Origin: Wenzhouxiangella limi
Lineage (GTDB): Bacteria; Pseudomonadota; Gammaproteobacteria; Xanthomonadales; Wenzhouxiangellaceae
Assembly (NCBI RefSeq): GCF_010499265.1
Contig: NZ_JAAGSC010000031.1
Span: 310,001 to 374,000, forward strand
Length of the DNA stretch: 64,000 nucleotides
Direction of reading: 5' to 3'
The notes below the pieces were generated by a model. It did not search any database, was not told the origin of the DNA, and worked only from the letters and a program-made list of their open reading frames with translations. Each line of letters begins with the position of its first letter. The stretch's first letter is position 1. Shown here one piece after another: positions 3,954 through 57,566 of this stretch. A program made the translations under genes and the position numbers.

Positions 3954-3964
3954 AGGGGCCTTGC

Positions 3965-6340: not shown

Positions 6341-6344
6341 GCGT

Positions 6345-6981: not shown

Positions 6982-7029
6982 AGCGAACCGCGCAGTTTGC
7001 GGTTAAAATAAGCGCGCAAGTTTGTCGGT

Positions 7030-7106: not shown

Positions 7107-7224
7107 TTTTTCTTTCACTCGCCGTTTCTTTCCCGCTCACAGTTCCTTTATTGTCACTGGCGTGTAATCGCGCATCGAAAAGCAATGCCGCGTCGCGGCC
7201 ACTGGAACTGGAGACCACTGGATC

Positions 7225-15087: not shown

Positions 15088-15089
15088 AC

Positions 15090-15758: not shown

Positions 15759-15777
15759 TGCGATAGGAGCGCGCCTG

Positions 15778-19372: not shown

Positions 19373-19522
19373 TCTTCTGAAGACTCCCTGGAAACCACGT
19401 CAGCTGAGGACTTGAGTATAAACACTGTCAGTCCTCGTTCGGGCCGAGCGGGACGGTTTTTCGCGGCCCGGGCCTGAGGCTATACTGCACTTCATAACAA
19501 ACAGACTCAAAAGGAGCAGAGG

Positions 19523-19951: not shown

Positions 19952-20007
19952 TTCCGTTTGACCGCCGGCCCCTTTTCGGGCCCGAAGAACAGCGTTGGCG
20001 GAGTATC

Positions 20008-22880: not shown

Positions 22881-23446
22881 TGCGGGCGCCCTGTATTCAG
22901 ATCCACTTGCCGGCCTGGGTCAACGACTTCCTGGCCAGTTTACCGCCGGTGCTGGAAAGTCCGGAAGAGAGAATGCGGGTGGCCATCAGCCTGGCGGAGC
23001 AAAACGTTGCCAACGACAGCGGCGGGCCGTTCGGGGCCCTGGTGGTCGCAGCCGAGTCCGGCCGGGTGCTGGCGGTCGGGGTCAATCGGGTCGAGCCGGG
23101 CAACTGCTCATCCGCCCACGCCGAAATTCTGGCCTTGAGCCTGGCCCAGCAACGTCTGGGGCTGTCGAGCCTGGCCGAGACGGGCCTGGGTCCGGTGGAG
23201 CTGGTGAGTTCGTGCGAGCCGTGTGCGATGTGCCTTGGTGCCGTTCCCTGGTCGGGGGTCAGTACCCTTGTGTGCGGCGCCAGCAAGGTTGATGCAGAGG
23301 CGGCCGGATTCGATGAGGGCGACCGTTCTGATCAGTGGATCTCACAGCTGGCCGCGCGCGGGATTGCAGTGCGCACGGGAATTCTTCGCTCGGCCGCGGC
23401 TGAAGTGATCCGCCGCTACGCGCGCAGCGGTCGGCGAATCTATTAA
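22880..23446 (+). CDS. Nucleoside/guanine deaminase-like protein
   Basis: Member of the cytidine/deoxycytidylate deaminase fold. The zinc and catalytic motifs are SSAHAEILAL and SCEPCAMCLG, with the proton-shuttling glutamate in HAE. I place the start at ATG 22880, which overlaps the rlmB stop (ATGA), giving 188 residues; the longer open frame is out of rlmB. By length and motif it is closer to guanine deaminase-type enzymes than to TadA, but the substrate cannot be fixed by eye. A strong terminator follows. Confidence 0.85.
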   Translation: MRAPCIQIHLPAWVNDFLASLPPVLESPEERMRVAISLAEQNVANDSGGPFGALVVAAESGRVLAVGVNRVEPGNCSSAHAEILALSLAQQRLGLSSLAETGLGPVELVSSCEPCAMCLGAVPWSGVSTLVCGASKVDAEAAGFDEGDRSDQWISQLAARGIAVRTGILRSAAAEVIRRYARSGRRIY

Positions 23447-23459
23447 GACGAAAAGCGAA

Positions 23460-23495
23460 AAAAAGGCCGAACCCCGAGCGGGATCCGGCCTTTTT
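23460..23495 (+). terminator. Rho-independent terminator after rnr-rlmB-deaminase
   Basis: AAAAAGGCCG and CGGCCTTTTT form a 10-bp stem around an inner CCCCGAGCGGG hairpin. With A and T runs on both sides it can work in both directions, serving the deaminase gene and the convergent DUF4168-type gene. Confidence 0.92.
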
Positions 23496-23514
23496 CGCTG
23501 CCTGGTGTTGCCGT

Positions 23515-23883
23515 TTACTGCGTGTTCTGCAGCATCTCGGTCAGGCGCTGCTGCAGTTCAGGATCGTTCTGGATCGCCATGGCGATGGCGTTGAAAGACT
23601 CCACGTCCAGTCCGGCAGCATCGACGGCGCTGGTCATTTCCTCGTTGGCCTGCACCTGCAGCTCCTGTGCCCGCTCGGGGTCTTCCACGCCCTGCAGACG
23701 CTCCGAAAAGTCCTGCTGAATCTCGATGATCGAGGTCTGCGCTTCGGCAAACTGCTCGAGCTGCTGATCGGAAACATCGATATCGGCCGGCGGCTGCTGC
23801 ATTTGACCTTCCTGGGCCACTGCGGCGGTCAGGCCGAAGCTCAGGGCGATGACGAGGGACATCAAGCTATTGCGAATCTTCAT
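23515..23883 (-). CDS. DUF4168-type secreted protein
   Basis: A 122-residue protein with a signal peptide (LMSLVIALSFGLTAAVAQ) followed by a glutamine- and glutamate-rich helical region. It resembles the DUF4168 family (VSDQQLEQFAEAQ near the start, FNAIAMAIQNDPELQQRL near the end). ATG at 23883 has AGGAG 8 bases before it; the open frame extends further but without a start context. Function unknown; a periplasmic helical protein is what the sequence shows. Confidence 0.8.
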   Translation of the reverse strand: MKIRNSLMSLVIALSFGLTAAVAQEGQMQQPPADIDVSDQQLEQFAEAQTSIIEIQQDFSERLQGVEDPERAQELQVQANEEMTSAVDAAGLDVESFNAIAMAIQNDPELQQRLTEMLQNTQ

Positions 23884-24016
23884 TACGCTACTCCTGTTTG
23901 CGGTTTGGGTGAATCGCAGTAATGTATATGCATGCATCATGCCAAAATATCGAGTGCTTGTTTTTCAATGGTTTGTATTCTCGGTTTCCGAACAGAAGAC
24001 GAGCTGATGTGTCATC

Positions 24017-25489
24017 ATGACGCATGTGTCTCGTAATCAACGTCATATGCACAGTCTCAGAACCCGCCTGATTCTTCAGATCCTGCTGCCGCTGACGCTG
24101 CTGGCCGCGTTTGTCGTCTGGACCACGTTCCAGGCGGTCGAGGGGCTGGTCGAGCGGCGGCTGGAAAAGGAAATCGAGCTGGTGGCCCGGGCCATCCGCA
24201 TGCCGGTTCAGCAGGCCTACGCGGAAGGTGATCTGGACCGTGTTTCGCAGTCTCTGGACGCGGTCTTCGAAATCGGCCGCGTCTATGGTGCCTACGTCTA
24301 TGACGATGACGGCAGGCGCGTTGTTGTCGCCGGCGAGGCCCGCCCGGGTACCCGCGCCCAGATCCAGGCCGCCGAGCTGGTCGAACTGGGTCAGGAGCTG
24401 GGCGAATACGCCGAGCTGGCCGGCGAGGAGGTTTATTCGTACTTCGTTCCGCTGACCGGGGCGACGGGGCGCATTATCGGGCTGCTCCAGGTCGTGCGCC
24501 AGGAAAGCGACATCGCCGGCCAGCTGGCCCGGATTCGCGAGCGCGGATGGTGGGTTTGGGCGGCCGTGGTCGCGTTGATGGTGCTGGTGGTGCTGTTCGG
24601 GCACCGCCAGGCGGTCAGTCGCCACGTGCGCACGCTGCTGGGGAGCATGAGCCGAGTCGAGGCCGGTGATCGTGATCATCGCGCCCCGGTCAGCGGCCCC
24701 AGCGAACTGGTTGCGCTGGGCCGCGGCCTCAATCGCATGCTCGACGCGATCGCCGAGATGGAAGCGCGGATCGAACAACAGCGGCGCGAGCATCTGCGCA
24801 TGACCGAGCGCCTTCGCGAGCAGGAGAATCTGGCCGCACTGGGCCGGTTTTCCTCCGGCGTGGCGCATGAGCTTGGAGCGCCGCTGACGGTGATCGACGG
24901 CGATGCCCGGCGCCTGCTGCAACACGGCGATCCCGACGAGGAGGCGCAGCGCCGACTGGCGAGAATGCGCAGCCAGATTCAACGCACCCGGCAGCTGATC
25001 CGGCAGCTGATGGACTTCGTCCGCAGTGATCATCAGGCCCCGGTCACGATCCCGGTCGAGCGTTTGCTGGACGCGGTCAGTGGCAGCGTTGGGCCGGAAC
25101 GCGAGACCCTCGGCATTGACGTCGAGGTCGTCAGGACAGCGCCCGAACTGGCCATTACCGGACATGAAATCAGACTTGAGCACGCGCTGCTCAATCTGGT
25201 GCGAAATGCGCTGCAGGCAGCCACCACGCGGGTGCGGGTTTCCGCCGAGCGCTGCGGCGACGAAGGCGTCAAGATCCAGGTCGAGGACGATGGCAGCGGC
25301 GTTGAAGAGGGGCTGGTCACGCAGATTTTCGAGCCGTTCCAGACCCGCCGCGAAAACGGGCAGGGCACCGGCCTGGGGCTGGCCATTGTTCGATCCGTTG
25401 CCGAAGAGCACGACGCGGTCGTGACGGTTGATCGATCGCCGGTGCTGGGGGGCGCGCGCTTCACGCTCACTTTCGGGGAGGCGACGTGA
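24017..25489 (+). CDS. Membrane sensor histidine kinase
   Basis: Two membrane helices (~17-35 and ~175-195) enclose a periplasmic sensing region. A HAMP segment, a dimerisation domain with the phospho-accepting H284 in GVAHELGAPL and an ATPase domain follow (NLVRNALQAA, EDDGSGVE, GTGLGLAIVRSVAEEH). 490 residues from the first ATG; ATG at 24047 is an alternative. The HELGAP form is typical of NtrB-class kinases. The partner regulator overlaps its end by 4 bases. Confidence 0.9.
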   Translation: MTHVSRNQRHMHSLRTRLILQILLPLTLLAAFVVWTTFQAVEGLVERRLEKEIELVARAIRMPVQQAYAEGDLDRVSQSLDAVFEIGRVYGAYVYDDDGRRVVVAGEARPGTRAQIQAAELVELGQELGEYAELAGEEVYSYFVPLTGATGRIIGLLQVVRQESDIAGQLARIRERGWWVWAAVVALMVLVVLFGHRQAVSRHVRTLLGSMSRVEAGDRDHRAPVSGPSELVALGRGLNRMLDAIAEMEARIEQQRREHLRMTERLREQENLAALGRFSSGVAHELGAPLTVIDGDARRLLQHGDPDEEAQRRLARMRSQIQRTRQLIRQLMDFVRSDHQAPVTIPVERLLDAVSGSVGPERETLGIDVEVVRTAPELAITGHEIRLEHALLNLVRNALQAATTRVRVSAERCGDEGVKIQVEDDGSGVEEGLVTQIFEPFQTRRENGQGTGLGLAIVRSVAEEHDAVVTVDRSPVLGGARFTLTFGEAT

Positions 25490-43544: not shown

Positions 43545-44195
43545 TCAAACAGCGGTGAGGCGGTAAACGGTCTCGTGCAGGCTCGTGATGCCATGAGCGC
43601 GAAACTTCGAGCTTTCGTCCAGAACGTCGCGCCGCTCCAGCGGCACTGAATCGAATCCAGTCATCTCCGCAACTTCCTCGAATGAAACTGAGAAAGGTGG
43701 TCCACCCTTCAGATTTTGATCATATTCCAGAGTGACAAGAAGCCCGATGGAACCCTTGGCCAGGCACTTTCGAAGCTGTTCTACGTAACTCTTGCGCATG
43801 GCTGGCGGCAGCGCGATCAATGCGGCCCGATCGTAAAATGCGCGGTAGGCTGTGGCGGGTTTGAAGGCAAAGAAATCCCCTTGCCACAACGAAACGCCGT
43901 CGGCTTCCAGGCCGCTTAAGGCCTGATCGGCTTGTTCGATGGGCGTGGGTCGACGCTTCCATTCCGCGAAAAAATCATGAACGGCAATCGGGTTCAGCTC
44001 GATCCCGGTGACTGGGTGGCCTCGTTCGCACAGCCAGCGCATGTCCAGTGTCTTGCCGCACAGCGGCACCAAAACCGGCTCGTCGATCTGGTGTACGAGC
44101 TCAGGCCAGTACGCAAGCAACGCCCAGTGCGCCTCGGGGGTATGAAAACCGATCTGTCCAGCCTGCCAGCGCTGATGCCAGAATTCCTTGTCCAT
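43545..44195 (-). CDS. tpm: Thiopurine S-methyltransferase
   Basis: SAM-dependent methyltransferase that in Pseudomonas also methylates selenium and tellurium compounds. 216 residues starting [18 protein letters not shown]. The SAM-binding segment is [15 protein letters not shown] followed by [11 protein letters not shown]. The acidic [13 protein letters not shown] segment is characteristic. The gene is intact, but its upstream sequence changes abruptly to AT-rich DNA within 35 bases, marking the left edge of the island. Confidence 0.93.
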
Positions 44196-44245
44196 GCGCT
44201 CATTGTACCGCTCGCCAGCTGCAGCTCGGATCTTCTATTATTTTA

Positions 44246-44261
44246 CATAATATACATTATG
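44246..44261. repeat. Dyad A at the island's left edge
   Basis: A perfect inverted repeat, CATAAT-ATAC-ATTATG. The same central ten bases (AATATACATT) occur in dyad B at 45558. A CTTCTAT lies 10 bases to the left here and 5 bases to the left of dyad B. It lies 51 bases upstream of tpm. It may be a recombinase core site or an operator. Confidence 0.6.
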
Positions 44262-44316
44262 CGAACTCTAGGCCGACACGAATCTTAACCCTTTAGCCGT
44301 GGCTACACGAACAAGT

Positions 44317-44409
44317 AATTCCGGAAACTTTTCCCAAGCAACCCCGGCAACAATCAAATTAACCATGGAAACAATTCGTTACCTCCAACAAACCCCGGAA
44401 ACAATTCGT
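44317..44409 (+). repeat. Four spaced 19-bp repeats, probable transposase binding sites at a transposon end
   Basis: Four copies of a unit close to AACCCCGGAAACAATTCGT lie at 44317, 44340, 44361 and 44391, spaced 23, 21 and 30 bases. The last two differ at only two positions over 19; the first two are weaker. Tn7-family ends carry several TnsB sites of about this size and spacing, so this could be the end next to tnsA. They might instead be arm sites for the tyrosine recombinase. The exact terminus was not recognised. Confidence 0.55.
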
Positions 44410-44462
44410 GCACAACGATCCGCACTAACGCCCCGCAGCGGGATTCTGGTCTGTGATGAGGA

Positions 44463-45503
44463 TCAAGCGCCTAGTTCGGCGCTTTTCTCGCTAAGTTTCT
44501 CCATCGCCAATCTGTCTGCGATCTCAGCCCGGCGGTCATAAATAGCCGTTGTGTCGGTGCTTGAATGGCCGGCAAGTCGCCTCGCGGCATTTAAGTCCAA
44601 GCTCGCTGCTAGCAAATTCGAAACAAAGGTGCGACGAAGATCGTGCGGAGAGACTTGATGCAAGGGGCTCCTGGCGCGTACAACGTCGTAGATGGTTTGG
44701 TCTGTGATGCCGCCGTCGAGAATTCGGTCCTTCCAGCTGATTCGCCGAAACAAACTCCCTGGGCCAATCCCCCGAACTTGCATCCACGTCTCTAGGAGCC
44801 TGGTCGCCAGCGCGATCATAGGAATCATTCGTGACACGCGACCCTTTCCGCGACGGACTCGGATCTCTTGTCCCAACTGAATGTCGTCGATTTCGAGCGC
44901 GGCGGCTTCCGACCTTCTTAAGCCCGCAAAAGCCAGGCACCCAACAATGGCGGAATCACGACGGCCGCGATTGGTATCGTCATTACAGTTTGAAAGCAGC
45001 AGCTCGAGCTCGCCAGAGCTCAAATATCGCCCAGCAGGCTCTTTGTCTCGAGGAACGCGCTCGCCCTTGATCGATTGCACGCGAAGAAAGACCTCGTGCC
45101 CAATGTGGTTTAACATGAATGCCTGATGGAAAACGCCGCGGAGCGCGGCCCGCGCGCCGTTGAACGCCGCAGCGGTTGGCTCGTCGGCGGCCAGTCTGGC
45201 CAGGACTGCGTTGGCGCCCGAATACCCCAATCCAGCCCAATCGATTTGGTGCCAATCGGTTGCGCCCAGAAATCGAGCGAGCTTTCTCAGATGAGCCGCT
45301 TGGGTCCGACGGCTCGCTGCTGACCGAAGCGACAACAGATAATGCGCGGCAGGATCCAGCCGAAGCTGAGCCGGAAAGTCCCAGCTATCTGGGTCGAGTT
45401 TGCGAACAACGTTTTGGTCTAGCTGAATGATGGACGGCGGTAGCAACTGGTCCGGCTCCGGTTGTACCAGGAGCGTTCTCAGATTTTCGATTTCGCCTTC
45501 CAT
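44463..45503 (-). CDS. Tyrosine recombinase of the island
   Basis: XerC/D-like site-specific recombinase of 346 residues. An N-terminal SAM-like DNA-binding domain (~45-150) precedes the catalytic domain. Catalytic residues are R196 in GLRRSE, K220 in the beta hairpin, H287 and R290 in SPHDLRRTF, H313 in AGHSSTD, and Y322 in IYDRR, so it should be active. It is transcribed away from the tns operon and is flanked by two matching dyads. Possible roles are resolving transposition cointegrates or integrating the island; the sequence does not decide between them. Confidence 0.9.
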   Translation of the reverse strand: MEGEIENLRTLLVQPEPDQLLPPSIIQLDQNVVRKLDPDSWDFPAQLRLDPAAHYLLSLRSAASRRTQAAHLRKLARFLGATDWHQIDWAGLGYSGANAVLARLAADEPTAAAFNGARAALRGVFHQAFMLNHIGHEVFLRVQSIKGERVPRDKEPAGRYLSSGELELLLSNCNDDTNRGRRDSAIVGCLAFAGLRRSEAAALEIDDIQLGQEIRVRRGKGRVSRMIPMIALATRLLETWMQVRGIGPGSLFRRISWKDRILDGGITDQTIYDVVRARSPLHQVSPHDLRRTFVSNLLAASLDLNAARRLAGHSSTDTTAIYDRRAEIADRLAMEKLSEKSAELGA

Positions 45504-45557
45504 TATTAGGCCGTGAAATTCCCTGCAATTATTGCCCTATTTCGGCCTTCTATCTTT

Positions 45558-45573
45558 GTTAATATACATTAAC
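45558..45573. repeat. Dyad B upstream of the tyrosine recombinase
   Basis: A perfect inverted repeat, GTTAAT-ATAC-ATTAAC, sharing TAATATACATTA with dyad A. It lies 55 bases before the recombinase start codon, between that gene and the MerR-like gene. Confidence 0.6.
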
Positions 45574-45595
45574 ATAAGTTCGTGGAAACAGACTT

Positions 45596-46072
45596 TCAGG
45601 CCGCAGGTTTGAGCTTTTCAGTCTCGGGTGAACTGGCGACCGAATGGCTTTTCTCCTCGTCGCCGAGTTCCGTAGAAAACAAACAGTCGAAAATCTGCCG
45701 AACGATTTCGCCCAGCGGGCTAACCACCCAATCCCCCGAAGCCAGCTTCTCATAAACGTTCTCTTCAACCGAGACAATCTCAAACAACCCTTGATTCGGA
45801 TTGAAGAGCAACCGCTGATCGAACAAGTCTATCGGATGATATCCACACAGAAGATTGACCAGCGTCTCGAAGCATCCCGCGAAGACAGCTGTCTCTAATC
45901 TTGCCTGTTCGCTAAAACGTGCAATAACCGCGAGGCTCAAAAGCTCCGGCCACACTAACCTCTGGTCTTCCCGACGATCCCATGCCCCCGGTATGTTTTG
46001 ACGCCAGTAGCGGAGCTTGCTTGCGGGAACCTCCAGGATTTCCGCGACATTGGTGATTTTATAACGAAACAT
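45596..46072 (-). CDS. Small MerR-like regulator of the island
   Basis: A 158-residue protein. Residues 1-45 resemble the MerR helix-turn-helix (YKITNVAEILEVPASKLRYW), with an unusual RQNIPGAWDRRED following. The rest (DLFDQRLLFNPNQGLFEIVS and an acidic, serine-rich tail) is not familiar to me. Placed between the recombinase and the divergent tns operon, it is a good candidate for controlling both. The start at 46072 is followed upstream by AT-rich DNA that should hold the promoters. Confidence 0.7.
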   Translation of the reverse strand: MFRYKITNVAEILEVPASKLRYWRQNIPGAWDRREDQRLVWPELLSLAVIARFSEQARLETAVFAGCFETLVNLLCGYHPIDLFDQRLLFNPNQGLFEIVSVEENVYEKLASGDWVVSPLGEIVRQIFDCLFSTELGDEEKSHSVASSPETEKLKPAA

Positions 46073-46457
46073 GCTTTTTTATACCAGATGCTTTATTTTT
46101 TGTCAAACATTTTTAACATACGGACAAATTCAGAATATTTTTGACTAGATCAGCATTTCTATATGTGATAAAAAATGTATTCTTAATTAGACAAAATAAA
46201 ACTCTGCTAAGAGAAGTGATAGTCGACGTATTTTTATTTTTCACGAAACTATTCTCAAAAAATAAGCGTATCACGATTTTATAAACACAGCAAATAAAAA
46301 AGCCCGGGCAATTGGAGCTGCCCGGGCTTTGGGGCGGGATATTAGAATCACCGCGACGTTGCCCTTTGATTCTCTACCCTCCCCTAACCGAAGTCAACCC
46401 TTTTCAACGGGGGTTGCGAGAGCGTTTTGTCTCACGACAGCCTAGTGGAGGAAACGA
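46073..46457. promoter_or_regulatory. AT-rich divergent control region of the transposition module
   Basis: No gene in 385 bases. The left 225 bases are very AT-rich (several A/T runs, GGACAAAT at 46122 and AGACAAAA at 46189). A terminator lies in the middle. On the tnsA side, AGAATCA (46344) and TGATTCT (46367) form a perfect 7-bp dyad, and CAACCC/GGGTTG pair near 46395. GTGGAGGAAAC just before the tnsA GTG serves as the ribosome binding site. Confidence 0.6.
46299..46330. terminator. Bidirectional rho-independent terminator between regulator and tnsA
   Basis: AAAGCCCGGGCA and TGCCCGGGCTTT form a 12-bp stem around an 8-base loop, flanked by an A run on the left. It would keep transcription from the regulator side out of the tns operon. 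Confidence 0.9.
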
Positions 46458-47111
46458 GTGATCGTACCGAATCAACGACCGATAAGCCGCAAAAAGAAGA
46501 TCAGCCTGAACCTGCATCACCGCTGGATGCCCGGTCACACCGCGCAGATCAGCCGATTCGAAAGCCGCGCCGAATTCTATTTTGCCGCGCTTCTAGAAGC
46601 TGATCGAGAAGTCAAACGATATGTACCCCAACCGTTTGACCTCCGACTGGATCCCCCTATTGGAAAAAGAAAGTCTTATCGACCGGATTTCTATGTCCAA
46701 AGAACGGACAACAGTGAGCACGTCTACGAGGTAACTACAGCGGAGAAAGCACAAGGTCGACCCGTTCAGCAGGCGACAGCGACCTTGAAGAAGCTAGGGA
46801 TGACCTATGCGCTCGTACTCACAGATTCTATCTATGCGCGATCTATTGAGGCTGAGAATTGGCTGCTGATCTGCCAGTATGTTTCGCTTTTTCATGATGA
46901 CCCATCAACCGAACAGACTGTAGATCTGATCAGGTCTCAATTTCTCTCGTGGAAAACGCTTTCCATTGACGATCTGAGTGCCCAGTTCCGGCATATACCG
47001 CGGGCAGCTTTCATTGGTGCTTTCTGTGTCTTAGCCCACTGCCATCGTCTTGAATTTCCGGACATCAAAATTGAGCCTCTCAACGCCAGAATGAAGGCCC
47101 GTATATTATGA
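46458..47111 (+). CDS. TnsA-like transposon endonuclease
   Basis: In Tn7, TnsA cuts the 5' ends of the element, allowing cut-and-paste movement together with TnsB. This 217-residue protein has the TnsA N-terminal nuclease fold: ESRAEFYFAALLEADREV, then VPQPF, RPDF (D77) and VYEV (E91). The usual lysine two residues after the last acidic position is T93 here; K97 is the nearest. A C-terminal helical domain follows. GTG start at 46458. tnsB overlaps its end by 4 bases. Confidence 0.82.
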   Translation: MIVPNQRPISRKKKISLNLHHRWMPGHTAQISRFESRAEFYFAALLEADREVKRYVPQPFDLRLDPPIGKRKSYRPDFYVQRTDNSEHVYEVTTAEKAQGRPVQQATATLKKLGMTYALVLTDSIYARSIEAENWLLICQYVSLFHDDPSTEQTVDLIRSQFLSWKTLSIDDLSAQFRHIPRAAFIGAFCVLAHCHRLEFPDIKIEPLNARMKARIL

Positions 47112-48970
47112 GCTGGCGGCAAGTATTGGCGATGAATCCAGAGCTTAGTAACATCTCGCATTGGTCAGCCGTGAATCTTGAGAATTTGACGCCGTCAGAG
47201 ATAAAGATCTTCAAGAAAAGAAAGCGAGCTGTTGCTTTGGTTTTGGGTGGGCAGACCATCTATTCAGCTGGCAAAGCAACTGGCTTGGCGCCGTCAACAG
47301 TCAGCAAACTCCTTAAGCGGGCGCTTGAAACCTCTGAAACTCAGCCACTGCCTGCACTGACAGCTGCCCTTGTTCCTTATACGCGAATCGCTACCTCCAA
47401 GCCGCTGCCGGCCAGTGGCTCCGCGCTCGGCTTTCGCGGCCAATTTGGTCGCCTTTTGCAGGATAACCCCGAGATTGAGGTGCACATCCGCAAGTCGATT
47501 TCAAACGCAGATCGACATGCACCCCACCAGCGACATCTAACAATGGCAGGTCTCCATGAGGAGATTTTGGCCATGCTGAGGAAAAAAGGGTATGGGCTGG
47601 ATGACTACCCGTTTTGCACCGCGAGCCAGGGGCTCGAGTCTTTAAGAAAGTGCTATCACCGTTGTAAATCAGAGATTCTTGATAGCCGGTTCAATCGAAT
47701 TTCTAGGGCTGGTCCGAAAAAAGATGAGGTCAATTTTGGCTTTTTGCTGCCTGGGATAGTTGAGTTTGATCATCATAAAATCGATGTAGAAAGCTCAGAT
47801 GTGATGCCCGACCGTGCCCGAAGAGTGATGAGAGCGATTCGAATCCCGCGCTTCTGGCTTGGACTGGCAATAGAAAAGTCGAGTACGGCGATTTTAGGAT
47901 ACGCATACGATTACTTGCGAAATCCCTCACAAGAGAGCGTTTTGCATTGTCTACACATGATCTTTCGAGGTAGCGACGCTCTTGATCAGGGTCTCCTAAG
48001 AACCGAAGAGCCAATGATCCCGGCTGTTCCAGCCGACTTTGATCCCAGACTAAGAATTATCCCCCGGGAAATTCGTGTTGATAACGCGATGGCTCACTAC
48101 GCCCATACCGTGAGCAATCTGATTGTGAACCGTTTCGGTGCCGCAATCGTCCATGGTCTTCCCGCTCATCCACTTGCACGACAGCTTGTCGAATCGACAT
48201 TCAGAGAGCTTGAGGCCCACATACACACGCTTCCGTCAACGGCCGGAACTGGGATCAATGATCACCGTCGCGAGCCTTCCAAGCGTAGAAAACGAGTCCC
48301 ACACCTTACCAACCTGACTCTTTTGAGAATCGTTCATAAGTTGATCGCGCACCATAACAACCTTCCACGAGACTATTTGCAGAATTTATCTCCAGTCGAA
48401 TATCTGAAGCGATCGATCGAAGAAGGCGCCTTACCTGTGCAAGCTAACAAGTCATGGTTTGATCAATCATCTCCATTCATCAAAACCGTCAGATGCAAGG
48501 TGCACCTTTACAACGGCCTTACTCCGCATGTGAATCTGCTCTACAACCGATATATGGGGCCGAGTCTTGCTCCCTCATTTTCCGGACGTCAGATCTACGT
48601 CAAATACAATCTTCTCGACATACGGTCTGCAGACGCATACGAGTTAGATGGAACGTTCATTGGTCGCCTACATGCCCCACGTCGACTCCTTTCAGAACCA
48701 CTAAGCGAGAGAACGTTAAAGAAGATAAAAAAACTTGGACTGCTTGATAGATTCTCAGTCGGCGACCCCATTGCCGAATACACTGAGCACCTAGAAAAAG
48801 GAATTGATAATCCAGAAGCGATCCGGGAATACATGCGAATTCGGAACATCAAACCGCTTTTTGACAGCAACGGGACGAATAGAAACCCGTCCGAAGATCA
48901 GAAATACTTGGCGGACCAATCGGAATATTCTATCAGCGCCATTGAATGGAGACCTGGACAATGTCAGTGA
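47108..48970 (+). CDS. TnsB-like DDE transposase
   Basis: Recognises the transposon ends and joins their 3' ends to target DNA. The 620-residue protein has an N-terminal helix-turn-helix (~45-70, GKATGLAPSTVSKLL), a second DNA-binding region, and an RNase H-like core with D221 (EFDHHKID), D325 (IRVDNAMAH) and E362 (LVESTF). The D-to-E spacing of 37 fits the family. A Mu-type C-terminal barrel (GRQIYVKYNLLDI, DGTFIGRLHAP) and an acidic tail follow. All catalytic residues are present. Confidence 0.93.
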   Translation: MSWRQVLAMNPELSNISHWSAVNLENLTPSEIKIFKKRKRAVALVLGGQTIYSAGKATGLAPSTVSKLLKRALETSETQPLPALTAALVPYTRIATSKPLPASGSALGFRGQFGRLLQDNPEIEVHIRKSISNADRHAPHQRHLTMAGLHEEILAMLRKKGYGLDDYPFCTASQGLESLRKCYHRCKSEILDSRFNRISRAGPKKDEVNFGFLLPGIVEFDHHKIDVESSDVMPDRARRVMRAIRIPRFWLGLAIEKSSTAILGYAYDYLRNPSQESVLHCLHMIFRGSDALDQGLLRTEEPMIPAVPADFDPRLRIIPREIRVDNAMAHYAHTVSNLIVNRFGAAIVHGLPAHPLARQLVESTFRELEAHIHTLPSTAGTGINDHRREPSKRRKRVPHLTNLTLLRIVHKLIAHHNNLPRDYLQNLSPVEYLKRSIEEGALPVQANKSWFDQSSPFIKTVRCKVHLYNGLTPHVNLLYNRYMGPSLAPSFSGRQIYVKYNLLDIRSADAYELDGTFIGRLHAPRRLLSEPLSERTLKKIKKLGLLDRFSVGDPIAEYTEHLEKGIDNPEAIREYMRIRNIKPLFDSNGTNRNPSEDQKYLADQSEYSISAIEWRPGQCQ

Positions 48971-49878
48971 GCGGTGGAAACCAAGGTTGTTCCTTAGAAG
49001 CAAAAATTATGCTCAAAACTCCTCAGGTTGAAGATCTTATGCTTGCTGTTCAGCAGTGGCTCTGGGTAGGAACTCCAGGTGGATTTGTTTACGGGAATCC
49101 AAGGGTCGGAAAAACGACTGGTATCAAATATGCATCAGAGAGCATCTCGACTCGGTCAGGAGGATCTGTTCCTTTCATTTATTATTCAGTGCAGAGAGAC
49201 CAAAGGAAAACTGACAAAAAGTTCTGGTCAGCGATACTCTTGGCTTTGCGAAAAGACATAACGCATACTCGAACAGCAATTGCTCTATATGAACAGCTGA
49301 TGGGCCAAATTGACATCATTTCTAGGCAAAATATGGAACGACAGGTAATTCTATGTATTGATGAGGCTCAGGATCTGAGCTTACAGGAGCTGCGATGGCT
49401 CATTTGTCTACACAACGATCTTTTGCATCAAGGCACTAACCTGCTTGTTACACAAGTAGGAACGCTTGAACTCAAAGATCGTCAGAAAAAACTTTTTGGT
49501 CCAGAGACAGATCACATTAAGGGTCGATTTTTCAACTCCGAGTATCGATTCCATGGGGTCAGAACCCGCAATGAATTGCAACAAATCCTTTTAATATTTG
49601 ACGATCCAACAGCCTGGCTCGGTTCTCAGACGCCTTCATCATTCTATCTACTGGAGTCTTGTTTACAAGGCGCCAAGCTTTGTGATCTGCTGCCTTTTTT
49701 TTGGCGCATCTGGACCGACAAAATCAAGCCAAGCGGGTACAGTGAGTGGCCAACATTTTACTTGATTGGTGCAATTCGCACATTTTTCCTCGATTTCGTA
49801 CATCGTATCCCTCATTCTGAAGACGTCGAGAGCTACATCTATGGAGCAGTGAAGGCGTCTGGAATCCTTCCAGAATAG
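48961..49878 (+). CDS. TnsC/TniB-like AAA+ ATPase
   Basis: ATP-dependent target-selection regulator that bridges the transposase and the target-recognition protein. 305 residues from ATG 48961, which overlaps the tnsB stop and has GGAG 9 bases upstream; ATG 48946 lacks such a site. Walker A is GNPRVGKTT (K51) and Walker B is ILCIDEAQD (D134, E135). A downstream arginine-rich segment (GRFFNSEYRFHGVRTRNEL) may hold sensor residues. Short, like the TniB/TnsC forms that work with TniQ. Confidence 0.9.
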   Translation: MSVSGGNQGCSLEAKIMLKTPQVEDLMLAVQQWLWVGTPGGFVYGNPRVGKTTGIKYASESISTRSGGSVPFIYYSVQRDQRKTDKKFWSAILLALRKDITHTRTAIALYEQLMGQIDIISRQNMERQVILCIDEAQDLSLQELRWLICLHNDLLHQGTNLLVTQVGTLELKDRQKKLFGPETDHIKGRFFNSEYRFHGVRTRNELQQILLIFDDPTAWLGSQTPSSFYLLESCLQGAKLCDLLPFFWRIWTDKIKPSGYSEWPTFYLIGAIRTFFLDFVHRIPHSEDVESYIYGAVKASGILPE

Positions 49879-49892
49879 CGGAGGTGGTTGAT

Positions 49893-51173
49893 ATGGTTGA
49901 CGTTGCGCATGGAGGAATGTGGGACCACCATAGCTCAAGTTCTTTAGAAGTCACATGGAATATCCTGCGAGCAAACGGGGTAAGTGAAGAGGCTTTTGCT
50001 AAACTTGACTTAGCCGACTGCCCTGAATGTTATTTAAAAGATGATTTTATTCATCCCAAGGTTTTACGCCGCAGAGCTCTTCGGAAAGCGTACTATCAAA
50101 GAATAATCTCAGAGATCCCACAGCCGATGTTTCTCAGCGAAATCAGGAAACTTAACATTCTCAGCCCCCGCAGGGATTCAAAGATTTGTGAGGAGTGTGC
50201 GGAAAGTGGCGTCCACTCCGTCATGTTCGAATTACCGTGGGTACATGAATGCCCTATCCACTCTACCAGTCTTTATTTGAACAATGCAGATTATAATTTG
50301 CGGAAAGTAGCATCTAATCGCGTTAAGAGGCGCCGATTGGTCCAAGAATTCAATAAATTGTCCCTCGATGCTATCGCCACGTTGAAGGAGATGAAAAATA
50401 ACTATAAGCCGTTCCATCCTATGAATCAGAGACAAACTGGAGTCCGCAAATTTTATTTTGATTTTTTCAATAAGATTACCAACAATTGCATGACATATGC
50501 TAGTGCATATAGTGCTGTAACACATGGATCAAAGTCAAAGATCTATTGTGTCTCTGACACCAGAAGGCGATCTTCAGAGGCTAGCGAAGCGCTTATCAGG
50601 AAAGCATATGAAGCTGCGTGTAAAAAAATTGATGCGGAGGTTTTATTTGAGCAAAAAGCACTCAAAAAGAGGAGGAGAGACTTAGCGTCTCTTTATGAAC
50701 GAGAGTCACTTAAGATCGGTCTTTATGAGTTCCTCGATAGGGATCGAGAAACGATCTCAGCTTTTTGGGCCGGATCAATGCGAGAGCTGGGTTTATACAG
50801 AAAAAAAGGATCCAGAGCGCGTCTATATTTTTGGACTTCACTTGATCAGCGGGTCTCTGAAGATGTATGCGCTTGCTATATCAGCAGGTCTGCGATCGAA
50901 CATGTAGTCAATCTTAAAGTTTATGAGACCCTTTATATTTTTCTTCTGAGATGCCAGATACACAGGCATTATACCATGCCTTGCGATGCTCGAGACTTAG
51001 AGTTTGCCTATGATTCCGATTCAGTGGCATTTCATGGGTTTTACTTTGGGGACACTCGCAATATGTTGCTTCCCGTACACACTACTCAATCGGTGATTTA
51101 TTTGGCGAATTCTGTGATCCCGCTGCACTTTCGAACAGCGCACGAACGAAAACTCGCAGAATCAGTAACCTAG
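49893..51173 (+). CDS. Divergent TniQ-like target-selection protein
   Basis: Likely fourth gene of the transposition operon, 426 residues. ATG 49893 has GGAGG 9 bases before it; GTG 49884 is the longer alternative. Zinc-finger motifs typical of TniQ/TnsD are seen: CPEC (C43, C46), then CEEC (C99, C102) with HECPIH (C120, H123). The rest is lysine- and arginine-rich and unlike the TniQ proteins I know. TniQ proteins direct insertion to particular sites or work with CRISPR effectors; none are present here. Family assignment rests on position and zinc motifs. Confidence 0.72.
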   Translation: MVDVAHGGMWDHHSSSSLEVTWNILRANGVSEEAFAKLDLADCPECYLKDDFIHPKVLRRRALRKAYYQRIISEIPQPMFLSEIRKLNILSPRRDSKICEECAESGVHSVMFELPWVHECPIHSTSLYLNNADYNLRKVASNRVKRRRLVQEFNKLSLDAIATLKEMKNNYKPFHPMNQRQTGVRKFYFDFFNKITNNCMTYASAYSAVTHGSKSKIYCVSDTRRRSSEASEALIRKAYEAACKKIDAEVLFEQKALKKRRRDLASLYERESLKIGLYEFLDRDRETISAFWAGSMRELGLYRKKGSRARLYFWTSLDQRVSEDVCACYISRSAIEHVVNLKVYETLYIFLLRCQIHRHYTMPCDARDLEFAYDSDSVAFHGFYFGDTRNMLLPVHTTQSVIYLANSVIPLHFRTAHERKLAESVT

Positions 51174-51221
51174 TACAAAGAGGAGCCCCCAGCTCTGCTG
51201 GCGGTGGTTGTCAAGCTAGAT

Positions 51222-53107
51222 GTGTGTGCCGCAGCAATGCGGTTTCGGTTAGCGGGAGCTAACCGGGCAGCATGAGAAGCTGCCGAAGTGATGGCGGAAC
51301 CGACCCGCCGGAGTCTGTCTGCAGGGACCGGCTCCAAACCACCCTCGAGCGGCATTGGCTGAAGACCGTTGTCGTGAGCGTCGAGGGAGAAGGCGCATCC
51401 ATGTGGTGTGTCAGGTATGGATCGAGAAGACGAGTGCAGACGAATCACTGTTGACGTGTCGAAATTGTACAGCCGACATCAAAACCGGGGGCGACAACTA
51501 TCCCCGGGACGAACCTACCGGAAGCCTGCTGACTGGGTGGGTGGTGTCCGGCATAGAAGTGGCGTGATCTCGATCCAGGCGCTTCGGCGGAACTGCGGGA
51601 ACTCAAGTCATGATGCCAAGGGAGCGTGCCAAGTGACACAAAGCAAGGCACTGAGTACCGATGCATGGCTTGAGGACGGACCGGCCCGTATGAGCGATGA
51701 TGCGGCTGTAATGGCTGCGGAGCAAAGGGGCCGGGTTGTTCCAGTCGACCCGATGGCCAACTCCCTCGGGAGGATGAACCCTTGACGTCGACAAAACCGT
51801 TTGTAATTCCAAAGCGGCTGATATGGGAAGCCTATCGCCGCGTGAAGGCCAACCGCGGTGCAGCGGGGGTCGATGCGGTTTCCATCGAGCAGTTTGATGA
51901 AAACCGGAATGGCAACCTCTACCGGATCTGGAACCGGCTTTCTTCAGGCAGCTACTTTCCGCCTGCGGTCAAAGCGGTTCCGATACCCAAGAAGTCCGGT
52001 GGAGAGCGGATGCTGGGTGTGCCGACCGTCAGCGATCGGATCGCCCAGACCGCCGTCGTCCTGGCTCTGGAGCCTGATCTGGAGCGGGTGTTTCACCCGG
52101 ACTCCTACGGGTACCGGCCGGGACGTTCGGCCCACGACGCACTCGCAGTGACTCGCCAGCGCTGCTGGCGCCGTAACTGGGTGCTGGAGTACGACATCCG
52201 CGGGCTGTTTGACAACATCGATCATGCGTTGCTGCTGCGGGCCCTTCGTCATCATTGTCAGGAGCGATGGATTCTTCTCCATGTGGAGCGTTGGCTGACT
52301 GCGCCGATGCAGCGCGCTGACGGAACAGTGATTGAGAGAACGGTCGGCACACCGCAGGGTGGACCCCTTTCGCCGTTGCTCGCCAACCTGTTCCTGCACT
52401 ATGCGCTGGATCACTGGTTAGCCACGCATCATCCGAAGATCGAGTTTTGTCGTTATGCCGATGATGGCATCTTGCATTGTCGCAGCGAGGCCGAGGCGCT
52501 GCAGATGCGCGAGCATCTGTCGTCTCGGCTGCAAAGCTGCGGGCTTGAACTCCACCCGGACAAAACCCGGGTGGTCTATTGCAAGGACAGCGAGCGTCCG
52601 GGCAAGTATCCGGTCATTCAGTTTGACTTCCTTGGCTATACGTTCAGGCCCCGGCGGATCAGGCGACGCGACGGCACATTGAAGACGGGCTTTACCCCGG
52701 CCGTTAGCCGGACGGCCCTGAAAGCAATGCGCCAACGATTGCGTGACAGCGGGGTGTTCCGGTACAGCCACCATGATCTTCAAGCACTGGCTGACTGGAC
52801 GGCACCCCGCCTGCGTGGCTGGATGCGGTATTACTGCCGTTTTCGGGGTTCGGAGTTCCAGACCCTGGCCAACTACGTTGACGCCCTGATCGTTCGCTGG
52901 GCAATGCGGAAATACAAGCGCCTGAGAGGGCACAAGACTCGCGCCTATGCATGGCTGGATCGACAGAAGCGTCGGTCCCCCTCGTTGTTTGCTCACTGGA
53001 GCGGCCGCGGCGAGTTTGTGGTTGGAGCAACAAGAGCCCGGTGAGTCGAGAGGCTCACGCCGGGTTCTGTGAGCGGCCGAGGGGGCAGTTCCCTCGGCCG
53101 ACTCGAC
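51222..53107 (+). mobile_element. Group II intron
   Basis: Retroelement whose RNA self-splices with help of its reverse transcriptase. The 5' end fits GUGYG at 51222 (51224 is possible). Structured ribozyme sequence with paired GC arms precedes the RT gene. Domain V is a 34-base hairpin at 53034-53067 (GAGCCCG pairing with CGGGTTC), and domain VI is the GGCCGAGGG/CCCTCGGCC hairpin at 53074-53100. The intron lies 48 bases after the tniQ stop, behind a small CCAGC/GCTGG hairpin. The ends are estimates. Confidence 0.85.
51782..53044 (+). CDS. ltrA: Group II intron reverse transcriptase/maturase
   Basis: Multifunctional intron protein for splicing and target-primed reverse transcription. TTG start at 51782 with GGGAGG upstream; 420 residues beginning MTSTKPFVIPKRLIWEAYRR. 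RT motifs include GAAGVDAVSIEQF, IPKKSGGERMLGVPTVSDR, GYRPGRSAHDAL, YDIRGLFDNIDH, GTPQGGPLSPLLANLF and the active-site YADD (225-228). A maturase X domain follows (LRGWMRYYCRF). No HNH endonuclease domain is seen. The stop codon at 53042 lies within the 5' strand of domain V. Confidence 0.93.
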   Translation: MTSTKPFVIPKRLIWEAYRRVKANRGAAGVDAVSIEQFDENRNGNLYRIWNRLSSGSYFPPAVKAVPIPKKSGGERMLGVPTVSDRIAQTAVVLALEPDLERVFHPDSYGYRPGRSAHDALAVTRQRCWRRNWVLEYDIRGLFDNIDHALLLRALRHHCQERWILLHVERWLTAPMQRADGTVIERTVGTPQGGPLSPLLANLFLHYALDHWLATHHPKIEFCRYADDGILHCRSEAEALQMREHLSSRLQSCGLELHPDKTRVVYCKDSERPGKYPVIQFDFLGYTFRPRRIRRRDGTLKTGFTPAVSRTALKAMRQRLRDSGVFRYSHHDLQALADWTAPRLRGWMRYYCRFRGSEFQTLANYVDALIVRWAMRKYKRLRGHKTRAYAWLDRQKRRSPSLFAHWSGRGEFVVGATRAR

Positions 53108-53118
53108 CGCCTTTTTCA

Positions 53119-53300
53119 TGCTCAAGCAGCCTGATTCATCGGCCGGTTTTCCTTTTCCGGGTTCAACCATACGGCGCCGGTCGATGATCAGTTTCTTGTG
53201 GCGCCACTCCAGCGCTGCGGATGTCGATCGCGGGCTTGGCTGTACACCTCGTGCCGCCGCGCCAGGATGGTCCGGAGCCCTTCATGGTCTGACAGTTCCG
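53119..53300 (-). pseudogene. 3' remnant of an IS3-type transposase
   Basis: On the minus strand a frame reads ARRHEVYSQARDRHPQRW, SGATRN, stop, then SSTGAVWLNPEKENRPMNQAA. This is the C-terminus of IS3-family OrfB proteins, with the expected tryptophan after TRN changed to TGA. The rest of the transposase is missing. It abuts the 3' side of the group II intron. Confidence 0.65.
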
Positions 53301-53308
53301 GAAGTCCC

Positions 53309-53401
53309 ATGAAGACTCCGAAGCGCAAGCTCGCCCGAGTGGCCTTCGCGCTAGTACAGAAAAACGTCGACTTCGACCCGAAACTGCATACGGTGGGTTG
53401 A
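53309..53401 (+). pseudogene. Possible C-terminal fragment of an IS110-type transposase
   Basis: A 30-codon open frame (KLARVAFALVQKNVDFDPKL) resembles the last residues of IS110-family transposases. No upstream part is present. Low certainty because of its length. Confidence 0.35.
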
Positions 53402-53822
53402 CCGGTGACATAGAATCTCACGGTGGCCACTTTATGCTTCTCAAAACATACCGGCTCAAAGAAAATCGCAAAGCCGGGCTGCTCGGAAAAAGCAAGACCG
53501 TTTGCGAAGAGACTGGACGCTTTATCACACAACAGGTTGGACCGGTACAGCACAAGGCCGATAACAAGTTCGGCATAGCCAATGCCGCTTTGAGCGAATG
53601 GCCCGCGGTGCGCGGAACTCATGATGGCCCGACCGCTGCTCGCAGCCTGTCAACAAGAGGCCGAATATACGCTTGCATCGAATCCAACCTCATGAAGTTC
53701 ACCGTCTCGGGTTGCGGGAGGAATCCGTATACGACTTGTTATGTAGGCCAAACTCATGGCTCCACGGCCATTTTCCGATAAAACCAGGCCGTTCAGTTAC
53801 GTTAGCGTGAGGAATGAACAGA
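53402..53822. other. Stretch without a recognisable gene
   Basis: Short open frames in several directions, none with a good start context or a familiar product. ATAACAAGT (53561) and ACTTGTTAT (53734) form a 9-bp inverted repeat 182 bases across. Probably decayed mobile or cassette DNA. Confidence 0.5.
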
Positions 53823-54020
53823 CTAATCTCGGTCACACCTAACAGCGCGGTTCCGCGTCTGAACACCCGCAAATACGGCCGCTGCTATAGCAGCGTACAC
53901 AGCTACGGTTGCTCCGTAAATGAGCGGGGTGCTGGGTATGGACGAAGACATTGCCATTCCCAGAAATAGACCTAGTCCGCCAAAGGCAAGACCGGCAAGA
54001 GGTAAGGTTTGGTTCTTCAT
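53823..54020 (-). CDS. Small two-helix membrane protein
   Basis: A 65-residue protein with AAGGAG 6-7 bases before its ATG. Two hydrophobic helices are evident (LPLAGLAFGGLGLFLGMAM and PLIYGATVAVYAAIAAAVF), separated by a short SSSIPST loop, with a basic tail. I do not recognise a family. On its own strand it is preceded by GAGCGTTATG, a cassette-like junction, so it may be a mobile gene-cassette product. Confidence 0.6.
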   Translation of the reverse strand: MKNQTLPLAGLAFGGLGLFLGMAMSSSIPSTPLIYGATVAVYAAIAAAVFAGVQTRNRAVRCDRD

Positions 54021-54059
54021 TTCAATCTCCTTCTACGGCAAAGATCCGAGACAATCTGA

Positions 54060-54106
54060 TTTACTCGACATAACGCTCAGCTTAACCGGCCGGCTTTTTA
54101 GCGTCA
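54060..54106 (-). repeat. Hairpin-forming junction between two small genes, possible attC-like site
   Basis: On the minus strand TGACGCT follows the stop of the upstream small gene and can pair (one G-T) with AGCGTTA 22 bases later. GCCGGCCGG lies between them and GTTATG at the right edge. The layout recalls integron attC sites but is short and imperfect, and no integron integrase is present. Confidence 0.3.
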
Positions 54107-54801: not shown

Positions 54802-56183
54802 CTATTGAGGCGGCGATGTGGTGACGGTCGCGGCCGAGCTTGACTCGCTGCCGAGCTGGCCGGGCCTCTCGCTGATGCCGCAGCCCAGCCACAGGCGCGC
54901 CACGGCGCCGCCGTCGATATCGTCGCGCCCCAGCAGTTCCAGCCCGCCGCCGTGGAGTTCGGCAATGCGTCGCACCAGTGCCAGTCCGATCCCGCTGCCG
55001 CCGGGCTTGGTGGTGAAGAACGGCACGAACAGGTTGGCGCTGTCTGGGGGGCCAGGGCCGTTGTCGATGACGTGAAGCTCGAGCTCGTCGGCACGTACGC
55101 CCCAGGTGACCGTTACTTCCGGCTGGTCCTGGTCCAGACAGGCCTCAACCGCGTTGCGGACCAGGTTGATCAGCGCCTGCTCCAGTTGATCGCCATCGGC
55201 GTGGAACCGGCAGGGCGGGCCATCGAGCTTGACCGCCAGCCGGGTTTCCAGCGCGGCGACCTTGGTGGCCAGTTGTCTGATGTCGATCGGTGCACGACTC
55301 GGCGGGGGCAGCTTGGCCAGACCGGCATACAGGCCGACGAAACGGCTCAGTGAGGCCGCGCGCCGCGCGATAAGCTCGAGACTGTCGCCCAGCGCGGTGA
55401 TATCGAGATCACCCCCGCTGCGCGCGATCCGGGCTCGCCAGGTCTCGGCCATCGACTTGATCGGACTCAGGCTGTTGTTGATTTCATGGCTCATGACCCG
55501 GACCAGTCCCTGCCAGGCTTCGTTGCGTTCGCTCGACAGCACGCTGCCGACTTCGGCCAGTACCAGCAGGCGGTGCGGTACCCCGCCGAGCCGGAAGTGA
55601 CGCCGACGCACCATGAAACGGCCGCTGCCGCCCGGCATCACGAGACGCACGCTGGCGCCAAGTTCGTCGTCGAGCAGGTAGGCAAGGCCCAGGGTTTCGG
55701 CATCGATGCCGTCATGCAGCCGAAGACCGATCAGTCGGCGCGCGGCCGGATTGCTCAGGGTCAGAACCCCGTCGTCGCGAAACGCCAGCACCGGCAACTC
55801 GATCTCGTCGAGAATCTTGCCCAGCAGCAGGCCGGACTCGCGCTTGTTCAATGCCGTCGCTCTCAGCGAATCGGCCAGCAGGTTGATCGAGTGGGCCAGC
55901 TCATCGAGACCGAGCAGCTGGGTTTCGCGCAGACGCAGGCTGTAATCGCCGTCCCGTAACGCCTCGACCACGGTCGACGCCCCGGCCAGCGGGCGCAGCG
56001 CCCAGTGGGTCAGGCGCGCCGCCAGGCCGATGAGAAGCGCCAGCACCAGCAGCGTTCCCGCCAGCAGCCAGCCCGGATGCAGGTCCAGCCAGGACCAGGC
56101 CGAGGCGACCCCGACGAGCAGGGCAACGGTCCACAGCACACCGCCCACCAGCGCCGCCCAGACGCGCTGTCGCAGCGACAGCC

Positions 56184-56187
<4 letters not shown>
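54802..56187 (-). CDS. Membrane sensor histidine kinase
   Basis: Two membrane helices near the N-terminus (VWAALVGGVLWTVALLVGVA and WLLAGTLLVLALLIGLAA) precede a HAMP-like segment, a PAS-like region (EIELPVLAFRDDGVLTLSN), the histidine motif VMSHEINNSLSP and the ATPase domain (NLVRNAVEACL, DNGPGPPD, GGSGIGLALVRRIAELHGG). ATG at 56187 overlaps the stop of the regulator gene; the longer open frame lies inside that gene. 461 residues. It pairs with the upstream NtrC-type regulator. Confidence 0.9.

Positions 56188-57566
<1,379 letters not shown>

Follow-up and report, generated by a model that had tools for sequence, protein, structure and literature searches.

The attachment sites of Tn7-like transposons, as listed in Table 1 of a 2024 review (PMC11406308), are genes (glmS, comM, yhiN, parE and tRNA genes) or plasmid resolution sites. 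The locus described here concerns dif, the site of chromosome dimer resolution, and a Tn7-like module found beside it in a 64,000-nucleotide stretch of the Wenzhouxiangella limi genome (contig NZ_JAAGSC010000031.1, positions 310,001 to 374,000; this whole stretch is called the window, and its numbering is used throughout). The island that holds the module encodes TnsA, TnsB, TnsC and TniQ together with a tyrosine recombinase (YR), and it very probably belongs to a Tn7-like transposon family with dif as its chromosomal landing site, as a copy whose distal end is no longer recognisable. The main novelty is this insertion at dif, by a Tn7-like family that attaches where chromosome dimers are resolved. 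In literature searches that paired Tn7-like, Tns or TniQ with dif or Xer, no TnsABC/TniQ element at dif came up among the titles and abstracts listed, a report outside the reach of the searches being possible; as a whole word, "dif" occurs in the main text of neither Faure 2023 nor Benler 2021 (PMC8649781) nor the 2024 review (PMC11406308). Two papers containing both "Tn7-like" and "dif site" (PMC11472951, PMC8987985) and a Pseudomonas genome paper (PMC3056050) deal with other matters in the relevant passages.

As for TnsB-like transposases at dif, the paper on the IS1202 family is the only report among those titles and abstracts (PMC10132070). According to its relevant sections, elements of the ISAjo2 type have a TnsB-like transposase, TGT-type ends with extra internal binding sites, 5-bp duplications and chromosomal dif or pdif targets, all of which recall the present family; they are, however, single-gene insertion sequences (IS) of 1.5 kb described there with no TnsA, TnsC, TniQ or cargo, whereas the window has a four-gene module. 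The geometry differs too: elements of that family insert in a single orientation and 5 bp away from the XerC site (PMC10132070), against 36-58 bp in five relatives of the window element, four of them on the XerD side, and a predicted 32 bp in the window. The window TnsB had no match at E 1e-5 among Acinetobacter plasmid records.

A second point of reference is Tn5053/Tn402, the "res site hunters", whose recombinase is a serine resolvase. In the review's account, they are Tn7-like, have a single TniQ and home to a site-specific-recombination site, as the window element appears to do; they differ in targeting plasmid resolvase res sites, in being without TnsA and in having a separate site-specific recombinase (PMC11406308). 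The window instead combines a chromosomal Xer/dif site with TnsA, and members of the dif group have a tyrosine recombinase or none.

Links between Tn7-like elements and tyrosine-recombinase proteins are also known. Tn6022 encodes TnsF, and Tsy pairs a YR with a small helix-turn-helix (HTH) protein; however, Tn6022 targets comM and its TnsF has a dead catalytic domain and N-terminal zinc fingers, while Tsy, as presented in the sections that treat it, has no Tn7 components (PMC10293859). The window YR is a catalytically complete protein of 346 aa beside dif, without a long N-terminal region. Tn7-like clades 2 and 3 likewise join a Tn7-like module to a tyrosine recombinase; in the passages concerned, Benler et al. 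tie the resolvases to TnsA-less branches and propose that resolvases accompany TnsA loss (PMC8649781). The altered TnsA of the window (see below) fits this proposal, but the motif-bearing TnsAs of two relatives, G143 and G155, do not. Finally, XerC-like recombinases of Enterobacterales plasmids have about 34-40% identity to the window YR (best 30 of 2069 records), and three of them have a roughly similar 28-bp upstream sequence, but no Tns genes are annotated in the three stretches viewed.

Element Ends Beside dif in the Relatives

The evidence for dif as a landing site includes five relatives in which both ends of the element were found 36-58 bp from dif, two of them proteobacterial and three from Bacillaceae, with an exact 5-bp duplication in four. 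The G155 element (C5:144133-171792, 27.7 kb) has the duplication CTCAT and ends 37 bp from dif. The G143 element (C2:56473-97871, 41.4 kb) has the termini TGGACATGCGACTAAATAACTAAACACTAA and TGGACGTGCAACTAAATCACTAAACAAAAG and the duplication AAAAA, and lies 36 bp from dif; here a TGG about 35 bp from dif was guessed first from the layout, and the far side was then searched for a matching terminus and duplication. Regarding the Bacillaceae, 28 of 30 terminal bases are identical in the Lysinibacillus cavernae element (569320-593741, 24.4 kb, duplication ATAAT, 58 bp from dif) and 23 of 30 in that of Virgibacillus (168-7245, 7.1 kb, CGGCT, 45 bp); in L. fusiformis (356914-378012, 21.1 kb, 48 bp) the ends again agree at 28 of 30 bases, and the duplication at three of five. 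The two proteobacterial elements thus end 36-37 bp from dif, and those of the three Bacillaceae 45-58 bp from it. Four elements (G143, L. cavernae, L. fusiformis and Virgibacillus) lie on the XerD side of dif and that of G155 on the XerC side, where the window element is also predicted to lie.

The four elements with an exact duplication were compared with controls in which the search was slid over pseudo-dif positions (57 for G155, 52 for G143, 54 for L. cavernae and 52 for Virgibacillus); their scores of 25, 31, 36 and 29 exceed control maxima of 22, 20, 21 and 19, respectively. In addition, repeat clusters on the dif side stand out in G181, L. cavernae, Virgibacillus, Fictibacillus (of the family Fictibacillaceae) and Pandoraea, with at most one background window as good. 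As for gene content, profile searches detected TnsA, TnsB and TniQ in each of the five two-ended elements, and TnsC was seen in those of G155, G143 and Virgibacillus. The Virgibacillus element, the smallest, holds TnsA, a frame-shifted TnsB, TnsC, TniQ and two further open reading frames (ORFs) of at least 80 aa, and no YR.

The dif Site and the Predicted End in the Window

The site at 44240-44267 (minus strand) is identified as the dif site of the chromosome by its sequence, its uniqueness, the GC skew and the KOPS motifs. It consists of the XerC arm AGTTCGCATAA, the centre TGTATA and the XerD arm TTATGTAAAAT; its core has no mismatch to that of Escherichia coli and is the sole match at up to two mismatches in the 3.35-Mb genome. 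Cumulative GC skew, computed in 10-kb bins over the first 450 of the 492 kb of the contig, peaks in the 340-350 kb bin and is almost flat until about 370 kb, with dif at 354.2 kb. KOPS-type GGGNAGGG motifs switch strand at dif: 21 are forward and one is reverse in the preceding 100 kb, and two are forward and 19 reverse in the following 96 kb. This site was found in 25 of 30 genomes of the genus, that of the window counted. The genes tpm (43545-44195 in the window) and ppa directly adjoin dif in three of 16 same-genus dif loci fetched, as they do in the window, and the other 13 had no tpm match near dif; from this native tpm-dif order, the island was inserted on the XerC side of dif, its probable target.

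The transposon end is predicted at 44300-44412 (plus strand), with a TGG terminus at 44300, four transposase-site-like repeats of the GGMAACAATTCGT type and a putative duplicated target at 44295-44299. The four related repeats cluster at 44320-44412, and none of 1065 background windows of 120 bp is equally repetitive; the predicted terminus is 32 bp from dif, an offset resembling the proven ends of G155 and G143. The placement at 44300 rests on this analogy and on the repeat cluster, because the distal end and the duplication were not found: the best score of the distal-end search was 12, against a control maximum of 23. Of the two inverted ends with a 5-bp duplication that mark a Tn7-like element, the window therefore shows one, predicted, while four relatives have both. 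The initial annotation had overlooked dif (its start, 44246, lies inside the site), the repeats at 44320-44412, the group II intron described below and the lack of a detectable distal end.

Distribution of the Relatives and Their Linkage to dif

The window TnsB is without a close relative in the collections tried. As a single protein it had no match in genome-contig and viral-contig collections; a sample of 274 genomes of the class gave five with a TnsB match, its own included, with three long matches at 26-29% identity, and 53 plasmid records matched, the best 20 of the 53 at 24-28% identity. A profile search of 369 class genomes gave six with TnsB, again including its own, and a scan of a species-genome collection with a three-row TnsB alignment gave 17 loci. 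These six and 17 make up the 23 genomes in which linkage to dif was tallied; G121, with a weak TnsB match (2.6e-4) and a best dif-like sequence with two mismatches on another contig, is outside the tally. G155, G143 and G181 are taken as Proteobacteria on the basis of their E. coli-type dif sites and their membership in the class of the window organism.

TnsB is on the contig of dif in 12 of the 23 genomes and on another in two, and dif was unmatched in nine. The distance between them is 2.8 kb in G000, 1.3 kb in G181, 16 kb in G155 and 36 kb in G143; 21 kb in L. cavernae, 18 kb in L. fusiformis, 2.9 kb in Fictibacillus and 4.2 kb in Virgibacillus; and 4.8 kb in Pandoraea, 48 kb in Methylophilus, 70 kb in Massilia and 88 kb in G310. 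In G181 (C24:1-3832), tnsABC adjoins dif with no tniQ between tnsC and dif, and the contig is cut at tnsA.

Some relatives are on plasmids. The record pNY3A (CP079755.1, 239526-281283), labelled as a Klebsiella grimontii plasmid, contains a Tn7-like element with CBASS-type genes; its TnsB clusters in the tree with those of Virgibacillus and Robertmurraya, and the record may be mislabelled or misassembled. The ends of this element are at 9143-24865 of that plasmid segment, with the duplication AGATA. It was not counted as a dif case: a Bacillus-type dif-like sequence (23 of 28 bases, next best 19) is 476 bp away, an unusual spacing. The other plasmid elements tested for ends (five besides pNY3A in one search, four in another) gave no convincing pair. 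Three Burkholderiales plasmid loci (L114, L115 and L117) have tns operons divergent from adjoining YR genes, with par or rep genes within several kb, a layout suggesting that plasmid relatives may target plasmid resolution loci; L115 is without an annotated tnsA.

The tns Operon and TnsB Phylogeny

The overlapping operon of TnsA-, TnsB-, TnsC- and TniQ-like proteins read in the initial annotation has all its genes in place, on the plus strand: tnsA (46458-47111) overlaps tnsB (47108-48970), which overlaps tnsC (48946-49878), and tniQ (49884-51173) starts 5 bp past tnsC. The window thus has the TnsB DDE transposase and TnsC expected of a Tn7-like element, as well as TnsA and TniQ. TnsB was assigned by domain match and catalytic-residue alignment, with D221, D325 and E362 invariant across ten rows, and TnsC by a match to the AAA+ ATPase domain AAA_22 (1.6e-11). 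The 429-aa TniQ-like protein alone had no Pfam match, and a profile from a seven-row alignment of such proteins matches solved TniQ and TnsD chains, with a best value of 4.5e-6. TnsA was matched by NCBIfam (3.1e-9) and Pfam (3.1e-5), both under the curated cut-offs; it keeps E and PD, but EVT replaces the EIK or EVK of G155, G143, G181 and pNY3A, so that the lysine of the E-x-K motif is changed. The E-x-K motif is also missing in four Burkholderiales plasmid TnsAs (L007, L008, L009 and L011), which suggests replicative transposition.

In a maximum-likelihood tree of 29 TnsB rows, rooted at the midpoint, the window TnsB groups with those of G155 and G143 (support 100/98) on long branches, its own among the longest; the deep branching order is unsure because of the midpoint root and several long branches. 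The three members of this clade all have a YR and all end beside dif, the window by prediction. Members bounded by dif also occur among the other 26 rows, i.e., on both sides of the midpoint root.

The Tyrosine Recombinase and Its Upstream Site

The YR gene (44463-45503, minus strand) encodes an XerC/XerD-like protein (Pfam Phage_integrase, 4e-21) with catalytic residues complete by eye. Upstream of it and in the same direction is the gene for a 158-aa protein (45596-46072, minus strand) with a weak MerR-type HTH match (MerR_1, 0.0029, under the Pfam cut-off). Between the stop of this gene and the start of the YR gene lies a dif-like 11-6-11 site (45552-45579, minus strand), the predicted and probable cognate site of the YR.

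YRs were surveyed by a Pfam Phage_integrase scan of ten genomes and by inspection of the element regions. Six of the seven proteobacterial cases examined, the window included, have a YR close to dif or to the tns genes. It is inside proven ends in G143 and G155 and inside the predicted end in the window; in Pandoraea, Massilia and Methylophilus, where the bounds of the element are unproven, it adjoins tnsA, is 2.8 kb from TnsB and is about 2 kb from dif, respectively. The seventh case, without YR, is G181, whose contig is cut at tnsA. None of the four Bacillota cases (L. cavernae, L. fusiformis, Virgibacillus and Fictibacillus) has a YR inside the element or between TnsB and dif; a partial Phage_integrase match is 3.7 kb outside the L. 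cavernae element. The YRs of the window and G143 are homologous (phmmer 1e-6), and both are just inside the dif-side end and transcribed towards it; that of G155 is shorter, of another type, and adjoins tnsA.

An 11-6-11 inverted repeat, the architecture of dif, lies 5' of the YR genes of the window, G143 and Methylophilus. The repeat is perfect in G143 and Methylophilus, 22 bp and 45 bp from the start codon, and none of 300 shuffles equalled either; the window repeat, at a distance of 48 bp, has 8 of 11 arm matches and was equalled by 53 of 300 shuffles, so that it is not significant as an inverted repeat alone. No such repeat was found upstream of the YR in G155 (best 7/11, equalled by 275 of 300 shuffles) or Pandoraea. 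Comparison with other recombinases adds to this: the window site matches 23 of 28 bases of the site 5' of a related YR in G129, the best match elsewhere in that locus being 14. Against the sites upstream of three enterobacterial plasmid YRs, one of them beside mcr-10, it matches 18, 16 and 18 of 28 bases, with best unrelated matches of 18, 18 and 18; these plasmid sites match that of G129 at 22, 19 and 22 of 28, and they count only through this likeness, because their match to the window site is no better than chance. The XerC-like recombinases of four loci (L165, L166, L167 and L025, one beside mcr-10) have in common an ACTTAT...TGTA...-type sequence 5' of the gene. The window YR site is unique in its genome at up to three mismatches.

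Taken together, the YR and its upstream dif-like site are probably a Xer-type resolution cassette. Cointegrate resolution had been offered in the initial annotation as one role of the recombinase, and the site directly 5' of its gene adds to this idea. Of the divergent recombinase and MerR-like regulator proposed there, the YR holds, and does lie with the Tn7-like module inside the (predicted) transposon end, while the MerR assignment is weak. Conservation beside this TnsB clade likewise applies to the YR, present in both other members, and not to the MerR-like gene, which is not conserved: a comparison with the ORFs (100 aa or longer) of nine other element regions gave no homologue. The pair had been put forward as what made the locus new, which is not supported: four Bacillota relatives are without a YR, an outcome that the initial annotation itself had named as refuting its reading, and the MerR-like gene had no counterpart in the regions compared. 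Tyrosine resolvases in Tn7-like elements had, moreover, been reported before, in the part of Benler 2021 that treats them (PMC8649781).

The site 5' of the YR gene and the host dif (central parts at 45559-45572 and 44247-44260, respectively) are in the same orientation 1.3 kb apart and have an identical central TGTATA; an exchange between them would remove the recombinase gene and the transposon end. A core as good as the shared TGTATA occurs in 6 of 200 shuffles of the island, and the common centre may be a coincidence.

Proposed Mechanism and Competing Explanations

If the island is a member of a dif-targeting Tn7-like family, TnsA and TnsB would bind sites at its ends and carry out its insertion, duplicating 5 bp of the target. 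TnsC and the single TniQ would choose this target at roughly 30-60 bp from dif, which would stay intact; the XerD side is the commoner one, with four of the five proven elements. TniQ, which would probably recognise dif itself or dif-bound XerC/XerD, is the best candidate for the selector, because the smallest element carries the four tns genes and two ORFs, and by analogy with the single TniQ of Tn5053. In proteobacterial lineages the element would often also carry a YR, accompanied in the window type by a dif-like site of its own, and the most likely use of this YR would be to resolve cointegrates or multimers.

Several observations weigh against a family directed to dif. A strict search for ends failed for the window, G181, Fictibacillus, Pandoraea, Methylophilus and L. 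fusiformis; in the last, ends appeared only with a relaxed duplication rule and without a control. The window distal end and duplication were not found with position weight matrices (PWMs) of the sites or with terminus and duplication matching, over about 69 kb beyond tniQ. The dif-side repeats are ordinary in G155, where 48 of 580 windows do as well, and in G143, which has no pair; the dif-side ends of these two rest on terminus and duplication only. Moreover, dif is on a contig other than that of TnsB in two of the 23 genomes (Bacillus timonensis and Cytobacillus, with TnsB contigs of 27 and 18 kb), and nine have no dif matching the patterns used, these nine being uninformative either way because their dif may differ from the patterns or be missing from the assembly. 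The distances in Methylophilus, Massilia and G310 are large (48-88 kb), with no end proven in the first and none sought in the other two, and six plasmid relatives are without an E. coli-type dif within about 8 kb.

Different readings of the same data place the choice of site elsewhere. The window YR is Xer-like, YRs are frequent in the proteobacterial cases, and those of the window and G143 sit immediately within the dif-side end, that of Methylophilus near dif; a Xer homologue could thus bind dif and bring TniQ and the transposase to it, for which TnsF of Tn6022, as described in the relevant sections of PMC10293859, is a precedent. Selection by the YR rather than TniQ is nonetheless unlikely: the four Bacillota elements without YR make dif targeting independent of the YR, the window YR has complete catalytic residues and a separate site of its own, and different members carry YRs of different types. 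For the Bacillota members, a YR as necessary selector was rejected. Alternatively, the YR and MerR-like genes could be an older, separate insertion at dif, with the Tn7-like element starting upstream of tnsA; in Tn7 the tnsA-side end is just 5' of tnsA, L. cavernae has the same arrangement (183 bp), and the intergenic region before the window tnsA is AT-rich. This is rather improbable, given that the significant repeat cluster is in the DNA separating dif from the YR, at an offset resembling that of proven ends, and that the homologous YR of G143 is inside proven ends.

Targeting might also be unspecific, either because the terminus region tolerates insertions or because the elements, as Tn7 does, favour replication that is terminating. 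Tn7 insertion at sites of replication termination has been reported; however, five elements from two phyla end 36-58 bp from dif and the sliding controls fail to reproduce four of them, so that this reading is improbable. Least probable of all, and largely refuted, is entry by XerCD recombination at dif, as in XerCD-integrated elements (IMEX), with the Tns genes as passengers. The element does sit at dif, and several phages and other elements use XerCD and dif, but such integration would leave dif on both flanks, whereas a single dif was found in G000, G155, G181 and G143 and in each of the genomes matched in two further dif scans, and the element ends, with their inverted termini and 5-bp duplications, are 36-58 bp distant from it. 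Insertion near dif by the Tns proteins remains the preferred explanation.

Other Features of the Island

The island stands out by its low GC content, 0.43-0.59 in 2-kb bins at about 44.2-54.1 kb against 0.59-0.68 elsewhere in the window, and is flanked by tpm on the left and a histidine-kinase gene (54802-56463) on the right. From left to right it holds the YR and 158-aa protein genes (minus strand), tnsA, tnsB, tnsC and tniQ (plus strand), and then a group II intron. A GC-rich hairpin, GCCCGGGC...GCCCGGGC, upstream of tnsA (46302-46327, no strand assigned) was read from the sequence as a possible terminator. General domain scans gave no Cas proteins among the island ORFs, no search aimed at CRISPR-Cas having been made.

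The intron lies directly 3' of tniQ (51174-53107), at 51293-53107 on the plus strand with an approximate 5' boundary; it has Rfam matches to D1D4-2 (D1-D4, 51293-51416) and D5/D6 (53032-53107) and a maturase-type reverse transcriptase (51782-53044). Behind it, at 53110-54100, are short broken ORFs that by eye resemble decayed remnants of an IS110-type transposase, and no transposon end was found there. The intron and the IS-like debris at 53.1-54.1 kb suggest decay on the distal side. The window copy itself is probably decayed, and, with no detectable distal end and an altered TnsA, it may be inactive.

Significance for the Family

A fuller picture can be offered, tentatively: a dif-targeting Tn7-like family spread over Proteobacteria and Bacillota, with TniQ reading the Xer/dif complex, some proteobacterial members of which have a private Xer-type recombinase with its own dif-like site. 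Beside dif, in the FtsK zone, such a cassette could resolve cointegrates and possibly act as a second, transposon-owned system for chromosome dimer resolution.

In conclusion, dif occurs once on most circular bacterial chromosomes and is not a gene, and for this reason it would be a widely available safe harbour. Its use as a target would tie the target choice of a transposon to cell-division proteins (XerCD and FtsK), and the elements found beside it would be a natural set of insertions for testing the way in which TniQ reads a protein-DNA complex.

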